NCBI GenBank assembly: GCA_028281325.1
Contig: JANQKC010000005.1
Location: 124,001 to 188,000 of the forward strand
Direction of reading: 5' to 3'
DNA: 64,000 nt
Source of the DNA: Alphaproteobacteria bacterium
GTDB lineage: Bacteria > Pseudomonadota > Alphaproteobacteria > UBA8366
The position numbers were made by a program, and so were the translations under genes. The notes beneath the pieces were generated by a model. That model did no database searches. It saw nothing but the letters and a program-made list of their open reading frames with translations, and was not told the origin of the DNA. How positions within the stretch are numbered: position 1 is the stretch's first letter; every line of letters begins with the position of its first letter. Below, one piece after another: positions 1,626 to 40,240 of the stretch.

Positions 1626-1646
1626 AATTTTAGAAAAACTAAAATT
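1626..1646. promoter_or_regulatory. Palindrome overlapping the 5' end of the LysR gene
   Basis: A perfect 8-bp inverted repeat (AATTTTAG / CTAAAATT, 5-nt spacer) ends just before the GAGG ribosome site of the LysR gene. Its position suggests an operator for autoregulation, as is common for LysR-type genes. It sits in an AT-rich stretch shared with the divergent 51-residue gene. Confidence 0.45.
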
Positions 1647-1656
1647 GAGGGTCGCT

Positions 1657-2568
1657 ATGGCCGTTAAGATGCCGCCGCTGAACGCCCTGCGCGCCTTCGA
1701 TGCGTCCGCCCGGCATCGTAGTTTCACGCGGGCCGCCGAGGACCTGAACGTTACGCCTGCCGCGATAAGCCATCAGATAAAGGGATTGGAGGCGTTTCTC
1801 GGCGCGAAGCTGTTCCGTCGCGCCAAGGGTACATTGATGCTCACGGAGGCCGGACAGCGCATCATGCCCGGCGTCCGCAAGGGCTTTTCCGCCTTCGAGG
1901 AGGCGATGGAGAATTTCGGTCTTTACGACAAGACGGGCCAGATCAACGTCGCGGTGACGCCGTCTTTCGGCGCGAAATGGCTGATTCCGCGCCTGGAGCA
2001 CTTCAACGCGGCGCATCCCGAGATCGATATTCGGATTTCCACGACGATGGAGATGATCGATTACGAGCGGGAAGGGGTCGATATCGGCATCCGTTTCGGC
2101 CGCGGCGAGTATCCCGGCTTAGTCGCCGAACCGCTGCTAAACTCCGAGGTGACGCCGGTCTGCAGTCCCGACCTGTTGAAAGGCGACCATCCCAAGCTGG
2201 AATCGCCCAGCGATCTCAGGCATTTCACGCTCTTGCACGACGAAAATCCCCTGCTCGACGAGGCGCATCCCAACTGGGCCATGTGGTTGCTGGCCGCGGG
2301 GGTGACGGACGTGGACGCGTCGCACGGCATGCGGTTCGACAGCGCCAATTCGGCCATCAGCGCCGCCATCGAAGGGGTCGGGGTGGCGCTCGGCCGCACG
2401 GCCTTGATGGGCCGGGACCTGGAGGCCGGGCGGCTGGTTCGTCTCTTCAAGCTTAGCTTGCCGATCCGTTTCGGCTACTATGTCGTGTATCCACCCCGTA
2501 GCCGCAACTTTCCTGCCGTCATGATCTTCCGCGACTGGTTGTTCGAGGAAGTGCGCGAGCCGGATTAG
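1657..2568 (+). CDS. LysR-type transcriptional regulator, GcvA-like
   Basis: 303 residues, the usual size for the family. The N-terminal winged helix-turn-helix is plain (residues about 6-64: PLNALRAFDASARHRSFTRAAEDL, AISHQIKGLE, LFRR), followed by the periplasmic-binding-like effector domain. The sequence 'MPPLNALRAFDA' and the pattern 'ESGRSDPNIA-like' effector region place it in the GcvA/AmpR branch. I chose ATG 1657 because GAGG lies 7 nt upstream; an in-frame TTG 12 nt earlier is less likely. The divergent neighbour is a 51-residue gene, and the gene converges with DAHP synthase with a 4-nt overlap of stops. Effector and targets cannot be read from sequence. Confidence 0.9.
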   Translation: MAVKMPPLNALRAFDASARHRSFTRAAEDLNVTPAAISHQIKGLEAFLGAKLFRRAKGTLMLTEAGQRIMPGVRKGFSAFEEAMENFGLYDKTGQINVAVTPSFGAKWLIPRLEHFNAAHPEIDIRISTTMEMIDYEREGVDIGIRFGRGEYPGLVAEPLLNSEVTPVCSPDLLKGDHPKLESPSDLRHFTLLHDENPLLDEAHPNWAMWLLAAGVTDVDASHGMRFDSANSAISAAIEGVGVALGRTALMGRDLEAGRLVRLFKLSLPIRFGYYVVYPPRSRNFPAVMIFRDWLFEEVREPD

Positions 2569-3623
2569 GCGTTTTCCCGGCGCGCGCGGACATCCGCGGC
2601 CAACCGGTCCAGCACCCGTTCGGACGTTTCCCAATCGATGCAGCCATCGGTGATGCTTTGGCCGTAGGTCAGCGCTTTTCCCGGCACCAGGTCTTGCCGG
2701 CCGCCGACAAGATGGCTTTCGACCATAACGCCGATGATCCGGCCGTCGCCCGCCGCGATCTGGCGGCCGACCTCCGCCAGCACCGCCGGCTGGTTTTCGG
2801 GTTTCTTCGCGCTGTTCGCATGGCTCGCGTCGATCATCACCGCAGGCGTGAGACCGGATTTCACCGCGATCGCGCTGGCGTCGTTGACGCTGTCGGCGTC
2901 GTAATTCGGCTCGCGGCCGCCGCGCAGGATGATGTGGCAATCCTTGTTGCCCGCGGTGGCGGCGATGGCCGACCGGCCGTCCTTGGTGACCGCCATGAAA
3001 TGATGCGGATGCGAGGCGGAACTCACCGCGTCGACCGCGATCTGCACGTTGCCGTTGGTGCCGTTCTTGAAGCCGACCGGGCAGGACACGCCGGACGCCA
3101 GTTCGCGGTGGACCTGGCTCTCCGTCGTGCGCGCGCCGATCGCGGCCCAGGACACCAAATCCGCAATGTATTGCGGCGTCGTCATCTCCAGGAACTCGCA
3201 GCCCGCCGGCAGCCCCAATTCATTGATATCGAGCAGCAGCTTGCGGGCCAGGCGCAATCCTTGTTCGATCTCGAAGCTGCCATCCAGGTTCGGGTCGTTG
3301 ACCAGACCCTTCCAGCCCACCGTGGTGCGCGGTTTCTCGAAATAGACCCGCATGATGACCTCCAGCGTGTCCGCATGGCGCTCTCGCAACGCCGAAAGAC
3401 GGTTTGCGTAGTCCATGGCGGAGGCCGGATCGTGGATCGAGCACGGGCCGATGATGACGGCCAGCCGGTCGTCCTGCCGGTGAATGATGCGCTGGATCGC
3501 GCTGCGCGCCTCCGTCACGGTGCGGGTGACCGCGGCGTCGCGCGGCAACTCGCCCATCACCTGGGCCGGCGTGTCGAGGGCCTTAATTTCGCGGATGCGT
3601 ATATCGTCTGTCGTGTCGAGCAC
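2565..3623 (-). CDS. aroG: Class I 3-deoxy-7-phosphoheptulonate (DAHP) synthase
   Basis: 352 residues, the normal length for AroF/G/H enzymes, which condense phosphoenolpyruvate with erythrose 4-phosphate as the first step of the shikimate pathway in the cytoplasm. Family signatures are intact: IGPCSIHDP with the metal-site Cys (about 62), FEKPRTTVGWKG, GFKNGTNG, ILRGG and IDASHANS near the C-terminus. The start is GTG at 3623: it has AAGGAG at 8-nt spacing, the residues that follow match the family N-terminus, and longer in-frame extensions run through the attenuator. Expression appears to be controlled by the upstream leader peptide and terminator. I cannot say which aromatic amino acid inhibits the enzyme itself. 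Confidence 0.95.
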   Translation of the reverse strand: MLDTTDDIRIREIKALDTPAQVMGELPRDAAVTRTVTEARSAIQRIIHRQDDRLAVIIGPCSIHDPASAMDYANRLSALRERHADTLEVIMRVYFEKPRTTVGWKGLVNDPNLDGSFEIEQGLRLARKLLLDINELGLPAGCEFLEMTTPQYIADLVSWAAIGARTTESQVHRELASGVSCPVGFKNGTNGNVQIAVDAVSSASHPHHFMAVTKDGRSAIAATAGNKDCHIILRGGREPNYDADSVNDASAIAVKSGLTPAVMIDASHANSAKKPENQPAVLAEVGRQIAAGDGRIIGVMVESHLVGGRQDLVPGKALTYGQSITDGCIDWETSERVLDRLAADVRARRENA

Positions 3624-3661
3624 GGCGTAAACTCCTTGTTTGCGTGTCACGCCGGCGGCAC

Positions 3662-3687
3662 AAAAAAACCGCCAGGGACTGGCGGTT
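3662..3687 (-). terminator. Attenuator terminator upstream of DAHP synthase
   Basis: Perfect 9-bp stem (AACCGCCAG / CTGGCGGTT) with a 3-nt loop followed on the minus strand by seven T residues. It lies between the aromatic leader peptide stop and the GTG of DAHP synthase, inside the same transcript, so it can only work as an attenuator. A GC-rich segment inside the leader ORF (the GCG GCG codons 20-21 region) is complementary to the 5' arm (CCGCC) and could form the competing antiterminator; that pairing is inference. Confidence 0.9.
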
Positions 3688-3711
3688 CTGAGACTTTCTT
3701 CGGTCTTTGCT

Positions 3712-3795
3712 TTAGACCAAACGCATCCCTTCCGCCGCCGAAGGCTTCGGATAGCCAAAAAACCAAAAATAGGACGCGGCGGTCGAGTGATGCAT
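3712..3795 (-). CDS. Aromatic leader peptide controlling DAHP synthase
   Basis: 27-codon ORF on the minus strand whose residues 9-15 read Y-F-W-F-F-G-Y: three Phe, two Tyr and one Trp codon within seven. This is the signature of a ribosome-stalling leader peptide for aromatic amino acid attenuation. The stop codon lies 24 nt before the terminator stem. There is no good ribosome-binding site; the predicted transcription start falls on the A of the ATG, which suggests translation of a leaderless mRNA, as is known for rhizobial trpL. Because codons for all three aromatic residues are present, starvation for any of them could relieve termination. Confidence 0.85.
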   Translation of the reverse strand: MHHSTAASYFWFFGYPKPSAAEGMRLV

Positions 3796-3802
3796 GGCCG
3801 CT

Positions 3803-3831
3803 TACATAGTACCGATGGGCCGGTTTGTCCA
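3803..3831 (-). promoter_or_regulatory. Promoter of the leader peptide-DAHP synthase unit
   Basis: Minus-strand hexamers TGGACA (3826-3831) and TATGTA (3803-3808) are separated by exactly 17 nt. The leader ATG begins 7 nt after the -10 box, so the expected start site coincides with the start codon. The nitroreductase gene starts 113 nt away on the other strand. Confidence 0.75.
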
Positions 3832-38487: not shown

Positions 38488-39378
38488 ATGGATTGGGACG
38501 ACCTGCGAATTTTTCTTGCCGTCGCCCGGGAAGGCTCGCTTTCCGGAGCGGCCCGGACGCTGGGTGTGAACCACTCGACCGTTTTTCGCCGCATAAAGGG
38601 ATTCGAGGACCAGATCGGCGTCCGCCTATTCGACCGGATGCCGTCGGGTTACGCATTGACCGTGGCCGGCACGGAAATGCAGGAGACCGCCGAACGGATG
38701 GAGGAGGAGGTCGAATGGCTCGACCGTCGGATCGCGGGTCAGGATCTGCGCTTGAGTGGCGAAATCGTGGTCACCACGGCCGACACGCTGGTCGATGGAT
38801 TTCTGGGGCCGCATCTGAGAGGGTTCTGCGACGCCTTTCCCGGAATCAAGGTCGATCTGATTCTCGATGCACAGTTTTACAATCTATCCAAACGGCAGGC
38901 CGACATCGCGATCCGGCCGACACTATCCCCGCCGGAGACGCTCGTCGGGCGGCGGCTTTGCGCGGTCGCCTTTGCGTGCTATGCCGCTCCGTCCTATCTG
39001 GCCGCGATCGGGCCGGAAACGGATCTACAGGACCATCGATGGATCGGACCCGACGAAAGCCTTGCGCATCTTGCCGCCGCCCAATGGCAACGCGGCGTTG
39101 CGGGCGAGGGGCGGGTCCAGATGCGCTGCAACAATCTGCTCGGGCTGCGCAGCGCGGCGGTGGCGGGGCTGGGCGTGGCCACGCTTCCGTGCTTCATGGG
39201 CGACGCAGACTCCGGCTTAACGCGGGTGACGGCGCCGGACCCCGCTCTCGCGTCCGCGCTCTGGTTGCTGACGCACCAGGACCTGCGGAACACGGCGCGC
39301 GTTCGGGCCTTTCTGGACTATATGGCGCAATCCCTCGCGTCCGATATCGATTTGATGGAGGGCGATCGGAGCGGTTAG
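38488..39378 (+). CDS. LysR-type regulator divergent from DoxX
   Basis: 296 residues. N-terminal HTH (about 1-60: WDDLRIFLAVAREGSLSGAARTLGVNHSTVFRRIKG, first part) and an effector-binding domain with FLGPHLRGFCDAFPGIKVDLI. The HTH sequence, with 'VNHSTVFRRI', is that of the TupR/PcaQ-unlike group with strong similarity to regulators of small transporters. It is adjacent and divergent to DoxX with a shared palindrome, so it probably controls DoxX. It converges on the lumazine synthase gene with a 4-bp overlap. Inducer unknown. Confidence 0.9.
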   Translation: MDWDDLRIFLAVAREGSLSGAARTLGVNHSTVFRRIKGFEDQIGVRLFDRMPSGYALTVAGTEMQETAERMEEEVEWLDRRIAGQDLRLSGEIVVTTADTLVDGFLGPHLRGFCDAFPGIKVDLILDAQFYNLSKRQADIAIRPTLSPPETLVGRRLCAVAFACYAAPSYLAAIGPETDLQDHRWIGPDESLAHLAAAQWQRGVAGEGRVQMRCNNLLGLRSAAVAGLGVATLPCFMGDADSGLTRVTAPDPALASALWLLTHQDLRNTARVRAFLDYMAQSLASDIDLMEGDRSG

Positions 39379-39890
39379 GGCATTGCCGCGACGCGAGACA
39401 GGTTATCCAGCGTTTGCGCGCACGCTCGGGCCGCTTCCGCGCCTTTCACCTTGAAATGCTCGAAGAAGTACCGCTCGTGCTCACCGTGCTCGTGGAAATG
39501 ATGCGGCGTCAGGACGACGGACAGGATCGGCACGTCCGTCGCCAATTGCACCGTCATGATGCCGTCGATGACGGATTTGGCGACGAAATCATGACGGTAG
39601 ATCCCGCCGTCGACGACGAGCCCCGCCGCGACGATGAGCGTATAGCGCCCGGTCCTCGCGAGGAGCTTGGCCTGAAGGGGTATTTCCAAGCTGCCCGGCA
39701 CATCGACGGTATCGACCGTAACCGGTTTGACGCCCAGATCGTCCAGCGTATCGACGAATGACAGATAGGCTTGATCGACAATTTCCTTGTGCCAACAGGC
39801 GCGGATAAAGGCGATGCGATGGGCGGCGGCTGAGGTCGCCGTGCGGTCGCCTTCGGTGTTTGTGGTGTTTGTCGCGAGAATCTGATTCAT
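39375..39890 (-). CDS. ribH: 6,7-dimethyl-8-ribityllumazine synthase, type 2
   Basis: 171 residues. The product catalyses the penultimate step of riboflavin synthesis. The sequence HRIAFIRACWHKEIVDQAY with DVPGSLEIPLQAK, GLVVDGGIYRHDFVA and HHFHEHGEHERYF carries the substrate- and phosphate-binding residues, including His of the active site; the pattern is that of the RibH2 branch described in Brucella and rhizobia. CAGGA precedes the ATG by 8 nt. It is the only riboflavin gene here and is preceded by an FMN riboswitch, so its expression falls when FMN is plentiful. Confidence 0.94.
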   Translation of the reverse strand: MNQILATNTTNTEGDRTATSAAAHRIAFIRACWHKEIVDQAYLSFVDTLDDLGVKPVTVDTVDVPGSLEIPLQAKLLARTGRYTLIVAAGLVVDGGIYRHDFVAKSVIDGIMTVQLATDVPILSVVLTPHHFHEHGEHERYFFEHFKVKGAEAARACAQTLDNLSRVAAMP

Positions 39891-39977
39891 GGTTTTTTCC
39901 TGCAATGCGAGACCAGAATCAGGGCGTGAAGGACACGGCAAGTCGCAGCATGTCGGCTGCAACGATGGCGATATCCC

Positions 39978-40121
<144 letters not shown>

Positions 40122-40240
40122 GTCGCGGATGGCTATTGAAATCCACCCGCCTGATCAATATAGAGCGTCGGCACGGCCCAGGCAAAACGGTATGGTGGGC
40201 GGGATGTTAGCGTGTTGGGGAGTTTCGGACTCGGTGGCCT

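Follow-up and report, generated by a model that had tools for sequence, protein, structure and literature searches.

A conserved leader with mixed aromatic codons ahead of aroG, a predicted ribosome-mediated attenuator of DAHP synthase in Proteobacteria

In C. glutamicum, a leader peptide containing Phe-Tyr-Phe, aroR, is found ahead of aroF, and aroF expression is raised by limitation for Phe but not for Tyr (PMC11802643, PMC4046766); the attenuation at aroR-aroF is credited to Neshat et al. (2014), as cited in PMC11802643. The trpL leader upstream of trpE(G) in S. meliloti (rnTrpL/peTrpL) is leaderless and its 5' end has been mapped (PMC7298713, PMC10117765). In Acholeplasma, aroF is preceded by the uORFC-13-1 motif, which comprises an upstream ORF (uORF) and a terminator (PMC8632094), and proposals of aroF attenuation also exist for E. 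coli and Shewanella. Our literature search, with the key survey of Vitreschak et al. (2004) outside its scope, found no description of a leader ahead of a proteobacterial aroG. The first-pass annotation of the DNA studied here had named the leaderless trpL of rhizobia as a precedent; for trpL of S. meliloti the leaderless state is proven (PMC7298713). Its remark that leaders of 3-deoxy-7-phosphoheptulonate (DAHP) synthase genes are less familiar is fair but incomplete, since C. glutamicum aroR-aroF is established and the Acholeplasma aroF uORF has been described.

We analyzed a stretch of 64,000 nucleotides from an alphaproteobacterial genome (contig JANQKC010000005.1), hereafter the window, in which aroG is preceded by a leader that we interpret from its sequence, with a probability of about 0.9, as a trp-type ribosome-mediated transcription attenuator sensing charged tRNA-Tyr, tRNA-Phe and tRNA-Trp. 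Documented here are the anatomy and conservation of the leader, how closely it is tied to DAHP synthase genes and how the aromatic run fits the hairpin geometry; these findings confirm the earlier observation of an attenuator-like leader ahead of aroG and support the interpretation given to it.

The aroG locus and the parts of its leader

The product of aroG matches PF00793 (E 2.7e-91) and scores well above the cut-off of TIGR00034 (aroFGH); the gene starts with GTG at 3623, preceded by AAGGAG at 3637..3632. A class II DAHP synthase is also encoded in the window's genome, making the aroG product an additional enzyme. Scans ahead of the class II gene, trpE (800 nt upstream) and pheA in this genome retrieved no comparable aromatic leader, so that the aroG leader may be the pathway's only such sensor. 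The upstream neighbour of the leader (from about 3944) is divergent, so readthrough from that gene into the leader is not expected, and no gene on the same strand lies upstream of the leader within the window, on which ground we reject that the terminator described below belongs to an upstream gene. At its other end aroG converges with a gene for a LysR-family regulator (GcvA-like; 1645..2568, +), the two 3' ends overlapping by 4 bases. Far from this locus, the window also carries an FMN riboswitch (39974-40125, −; RF00050, 113 bits) that overlaps the start of an ORF (39375..40088, −) resembling lumazine synthase (RibH) by sequence, an ordinary arrangement. The features of the aroG leader are as follows.

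2565..3623 (−): aroG, type I DAHP synthase (PF00793, TIGR00034)
3826..3831 (−): −35 box TGGACA (sequence)
3803..3808 (−): −10 box TATGTA, 7 nt ahead of the leader ATG (sequence)
3712..3795 (−): leader ORF of 27 codons, MHHSTAASYFWFFGYPKPSAAEGMRLV, with a probable leaderless start (sequence, and homologous leaders at almost every aroG locus)
3775..3788 (−): segment 1, ACTCGACCGCCGCG, anti-antiterminator partner of segment 2 (duplex and fold)
3751..3771 (−): stall run TAT TTT TGG TTT TTT GGC TAT, codons 9-15, Y9-Y15 (sequence, conserved run)
3731..3740 (−): segment 2, CGGCGGCGGA, antiterminator strand (pairs with segment 3)
3679..3687 (−): segment 3, AACCGCCAG, 5' arm of the terminator (sequence, conservation)
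3667..3675 (−): segment 4, CTGGCGGTT, 3' arm of the terminator (sequence, covariation at its foot)
3662..3668 (−): T7 tract of the terminator (sequence)
3651..3658 (−): CCGCCGGC, a candidate segment 5 that follows the T tract and is complementary to segment 4 (pairing statistics)

The first-pass annotation had proposed a TGGACA-TATGTA promoter, a 27-codon leader with a YFWFFGY run, an antiterminator and a perfect terminator, and each of these is present on the minus strand: the two boxes are 17 nt apart, the leader occupies 3795..3712 with its ATG at 3795, 7 nt past the −10 box, the antiterminator core (GGCGGCGG, segment 2) falls in codons 19-21, and a perfect 9-bp stem (3687-3679/3675-3667, with a loop of 3 nt) followed by T7 separates the leader from aroG. 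The core of segment 1 (ACCGCCGC) coincides with codons 5-7, and together with the cores of segments 3 (ACCGCCAG) and 4 (CTGGCGGT) these elements make up the classical alternative-pairing set. A simple promoter/terminator scan of the window listed none of these minus-strand sites: TATGTA falls outside its consensus rule, and the T run is probably consumed when the stem is extended, which would leave the terminator unlisted. The leader stop codon sits within the loop of a small GGTC...GACC hairpin (about 3699..3718, −), with GATC...GATC look-alikes in relatives, and this hairpin looks conserved by eye in several alphaproteobacterial loci.

Conservation, distribution and start of the leader

An aromatic-rich leader and a terminator of the GCCGCCAG...CTGGCGGC type (CCGCC/GGCGG) were found by an upstream scan at 80 of 80 aroG loci, a set of relatives from named genomes that is biased to close relatives; the conserved aromatic leader ORFs that the earlier reading had suggested looking for upstream of homologous aroG genes are thus present throughout this set. 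The leader of L075 (MTFSRFGFHFYFSYSSPQAVEKR) was missed by the script and found by hand, and the terminators of L018 and L051 (CCACCGCC...GGCGGTTTTTTT) were placed by inspection. At least six aromatic residues in eight were present in the best ORF within 450 nt upstream at 51 of 86 loci, compared with 0 of 1720 shuffled sequences, a count in which minus-strand loci were read in the wrong orientation; the corrected scan gave the leaders at the 80-locus set. This shuffle control, together with the recurrence of the element in the class and phylum samples, rules out a chance ORF. Close relatives, in which a missing leader or hairpin would by the earlier reading have refuted the proposal, retain both, including the sister species (L004; MHRSTATSYFWFFGYPKPLAAEGMRLV), and conservation of the leader, run, antiterminator core and terminator extends to the order and class and also to beta- and gammaproteobacteria.

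In an unbiased sample of the class (289 alphaproteobacterial genomes), a covariance model of the aroG leaders and the AroG protein were run separately. The element was detected in all 8 genomes having aroG, directly adjacent to the gene in 7 and split between two contig ends in the eighth, and the 281 genomes without aroG yielded only two weak matches, both simple terminators on inspection. The phylum sample (398 genomes) gave 55 matches. Of these, 48 stand upstream of a DAHP synthase gene, comprising the match in the window itself, 43 for which adjacency was shown and four more, while 3 are ahead of pheA and 4 ahead of pheS, the phe genes being confirmed by Pfam in one pheS and two pheA cases. 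Wherever the distance from the element to the DAHP synthase gene was measured (43 cases), it was 39-144 nt. The remaining 7 of the 55 matches are the Phe attenuators of pheA and pheST, and the peptide ahead of the four pheS matches is presumably the enterobacterial pheM leader. As the model was built from aroG leaders only, its recovery of classical Phe attenuators serves well as a positive control. In the phylum sample, many other aroG genes of gamma- and betaproteobacteria had no covariance-model match, indicating that part of the aroG family has the element. An element of wider use is ruled out, as beyond DAHP synthase genes only pheA/pheST leaders were matched in this sample. The element is conserved across many alpha- and betaproteobacteria and some gammaproteobacteria. 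Phylogenetic analysis of 50 AroG proteins placed the alphaproteobacterial and Xanthomonadales-type sequences in one clade next to the Alcaligenaceae (support 100/99), and leader and aroG appear to have travelled together. In the same tree, the aroG of a record titled Mycobacterium sp. KBS0706 (L010), which also has the leader, groups with those of alphaproteobacteria, and the name is probably wrong.

In alphaproteobacteria the leader is probably translated from a leaderless transcript, as judged from the promoter-ATG spacing and the missing Shine-Dalgarno sequence. The −35 box picked at this place was GTGACA, TCGACA, ATGACA or TGGACA in 62 of 62 alphaproteobacterial loci scored, and the picked −10 box lies 4-8 nt from the leader ATG in 59 of them. 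A Shine-Dalgarno match of at least 4 nt precedes 1 of 62 leaders but 57 of 62 aroG starts at the same loci. Several Alcaligenaceae have the same promoter-ATG spacing (TTGGCA-17-TAGGAT). Alternatively, genuine attenuation could act through a leader whose translation begins at an ordinary initiation site within a longer transcript, as might be thought from the Oxalobacteraceae, in which a promoter at the leaderless spacing is not clear, and from the Shine-Dalgarno-like matches in 7 of 19 betaproteobacterial leaders. Against the promoter spacing and the rarity of such matches in alphaproteobacteria, and with a divergent upstream gene in the window from which readthrough is not expected, we consider this unlikely.

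Alternative pairing and the amino acids sensed

The switch that we infer, including its start site, stalling, readthrough and amino acid response, would work as follows. Transcription would begin at the A of the leader ATG or at a neighbouring base, and a ribosome would load on the leaderless transcript. With any one aromatic amino acid in short supply, the ribosome would stall in codons 9-15 and cover segment 1, leaving segment 2 to pair with segment 3, so that the terminator would be blocked and aroG transcribed. When all three aromatics are plentiful, the ribosome would move on over segment 2, and segments 1 and 2 could re-pair behind it; segment 3 would then be left to segment 4, the terminator would form and transcription would end at the T tract.

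In order to fold the switch, we cut transcripts at the end of segment 3 and confined pairing to RNA that the ribosome had yet to reach. For the window, the pairing probability of segment 3 was 0.82-1.00 for each A-site codon from 9 to 16, 0.53 for codon 17 and 0.01 for codon 18; the last aromatic codon being codon 15, the antiterminator is masked about two codons past the run. In 13 other loci, the same folding put the switch at an equivalent position with respect to the aromatic run. The comparison of alternative hairpins proposed earlier gave a switch near the end of the run. Where base pairs were permitted to span the stalled ribosome, the window's antiterminator was freed solely by stalling at Tyr9-Trp11 and in part at Phe12, a result that counts against the model; such pairing is sterically doubtful, though it may occur. 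The core of segment 2, GG[C/T]GG, is kept in 80 loci, and in 53 of them it starts 14 nt downstream from the first base of the final aromatic codon, an offset that should correspond to the expected position of the ribosome's front edge. The locus combines a cluster of end-product codons in a short leader ORF, an intrinsic terminator before aroG and, by computation, an antiterminator that precludes the terminator and is released when a ribosome occupies the control codons, as in trp-type attenuators.

The 144-nt leader folds better than its shuffles (z −2.25). Pairing of segments 2 and 3 had a median z of −2.0 across loci and −0.8 in the window alone; for segments 1 and 2 the median was −1.0, the window's duplex (−20.6 kcal/mol, z −1.7) also being present in the fold of its 144-nt leader. 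Segments 2 and 3 are nearly invariant at their core and their covariation, scored with an anchoring rule that favours pairing, is thin, being confined to the Rhizobium tropici group, L088 and L070, where matched changes keep the two segments paired and the terminator has a G-U pair in 2 of the 3. The terminator itself covaries from G:C to A:U at the foot of segment 4. In a few relatives (the Rhizobium tropici group, Rhodopila and L098) the aromatic run has decayed to few codons, which counts against an attenuator. The terminator was very stable in every fold computed, as would be expected if it were constitutive or ended another transcript and the aromatic ORF were incidental; with no same-strand gene upstream of the leader in the window, and with the run, its spacing to segment 2 and the gene association conserved over three classes, we regard this as scarcely credible.

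We also analyzed which of the aromatic amino acids the attenuator is likely to sense. Phe, Tyr and Trp are all present in 58 of 64 alphaproteobacterial leaders, whereas Trp is absent in the remaining 6 and in 12 of 19 betaproteobacterial leaders. For Phe, the codons TTT and TTC are used 118:19 in the alphaproteobacterial leaders as against 16:330 in aroG at the same loci, a bias that could come from slow decoding of a rare codon or from a need for unstructured, U-rich RNA. Control may in effect depend on just one or two of the amino acids, Phe and/or Tyr, with the Trp codon of little effect, as the leaders that do without Trp, the restriction of the TTT bias to Phe and the indifference of the C. 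glutamicum aroF operon to Tyr supply (PMC11802643) would suggest. Set against this are the 58 leaders holding all three residues and the TGG codon, which is invariant in 58 run-anchored leaders, though these were anchored on that Trp. On balance we think it a real possibility, but one we would not favour over sensing of all three charged tRNAs.

In most alphaproteobacterial loci, segment 4 can also pair with the 20 nt beyond the T tract (in the window, GTGCCGCCGGC), which hold candidate segment 5; a CCGCCGGC-like stretch is conserved there. Across 64 loci (62 alpha- and 2 gammaproteobacterial) this pairing had a median energy of −17.5 kcal/mol and a z of −3.25, kinship among the loci being ignored; in betaproteobacterial loci the pairing of these 20 nt with the 3' arm of the terminator is weak. 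As judged from this pairing, segment 5 may hold segment 4 in readthrough transcripts. By analogy with rnTrpL/peTrpL of S. meliloti, the terminated leader RNA or its peptide might, besides its action in cis, act in trans. The leaderless small RNA layout is similar and the S. meliloti case sets a precedent (PMC7298713), but the non-aromatic part of the peptide is explicable by RNA pairing, and we hold trans action to be unlikely. A combined scheme, in which one leaderless leader senses three aromatics and thereby the whole pathway, segment 5 locks the on-state and the RNA or peptide may act in trans, is likewise speculative and improbable as a whole.

Comparison with known attenuators

No Rfam family matched the window's leader at its gathering score, so that a known family is ruled out; RF01859 (Phe_leader, pheL-pheA) spans the leader but, at 24.9 bits (E 0.032), falls far below its gathering score of 55. 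The proteobacterial aroG leader could join Rfam. For Bradyrhizobium, Mesorhizobium, Devosia, Bordetella, Achromobacter, Massilia and others, it provides a putative regulator, open to experiment, of the step at which aromatic synthesis begins, and its mixed Phe/Tyr/Trp run lets one ask whether one leader integrates three end products.

One of the closest systems is C. glutamicum aroR-aroF, in which, as predicted for aroG, ribosomes stall on the aromatic codons of a leader peptide and so attenuate a downstream DAHP synthase gene, but which carries only Phe-Tyr-Phe, is unaffected by Tyr and belongs to an actinobacterium; the likeness is drawn from its published description. The uORFC-13-1 motif shares a uORF with Phe codons and a terminator ahead of a DAHP synthase gene, but is confined to Acholeplasma and environmental sequences, has at least one Phe codon and, as described, another structure. 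The enterobacterial pheL-pheA and pheM-pheST leaders, matched by the aroG covariance model, have an aromatic run and a GC-rich terminator; in these the run is mostly Phe and the gene is pheA or pheST rather than that of a DAHP synthase. Like the window's aroG leader, trpL of S. meliloti comes from an alphaproteobacterium; it has a leaderless leader ORF at the 5' end of its RNA, as is probable for aroG, and acts by ribosome-mediated attenuation, as predicted for aroG, but it encodes a peptide of 14 amino acids, senses Trp alone, precedes trpE(G) and has a mapped 5' end. With a mixed run ahead of aroG, the window's leader falls outside the trpL family, which has Trp codons only and lies ahead of trpE. 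Together, these comparisons single out the mixed aromatic codons, combined with a probable leaderless start, as distinctive of the proteobacterial aroG leader.
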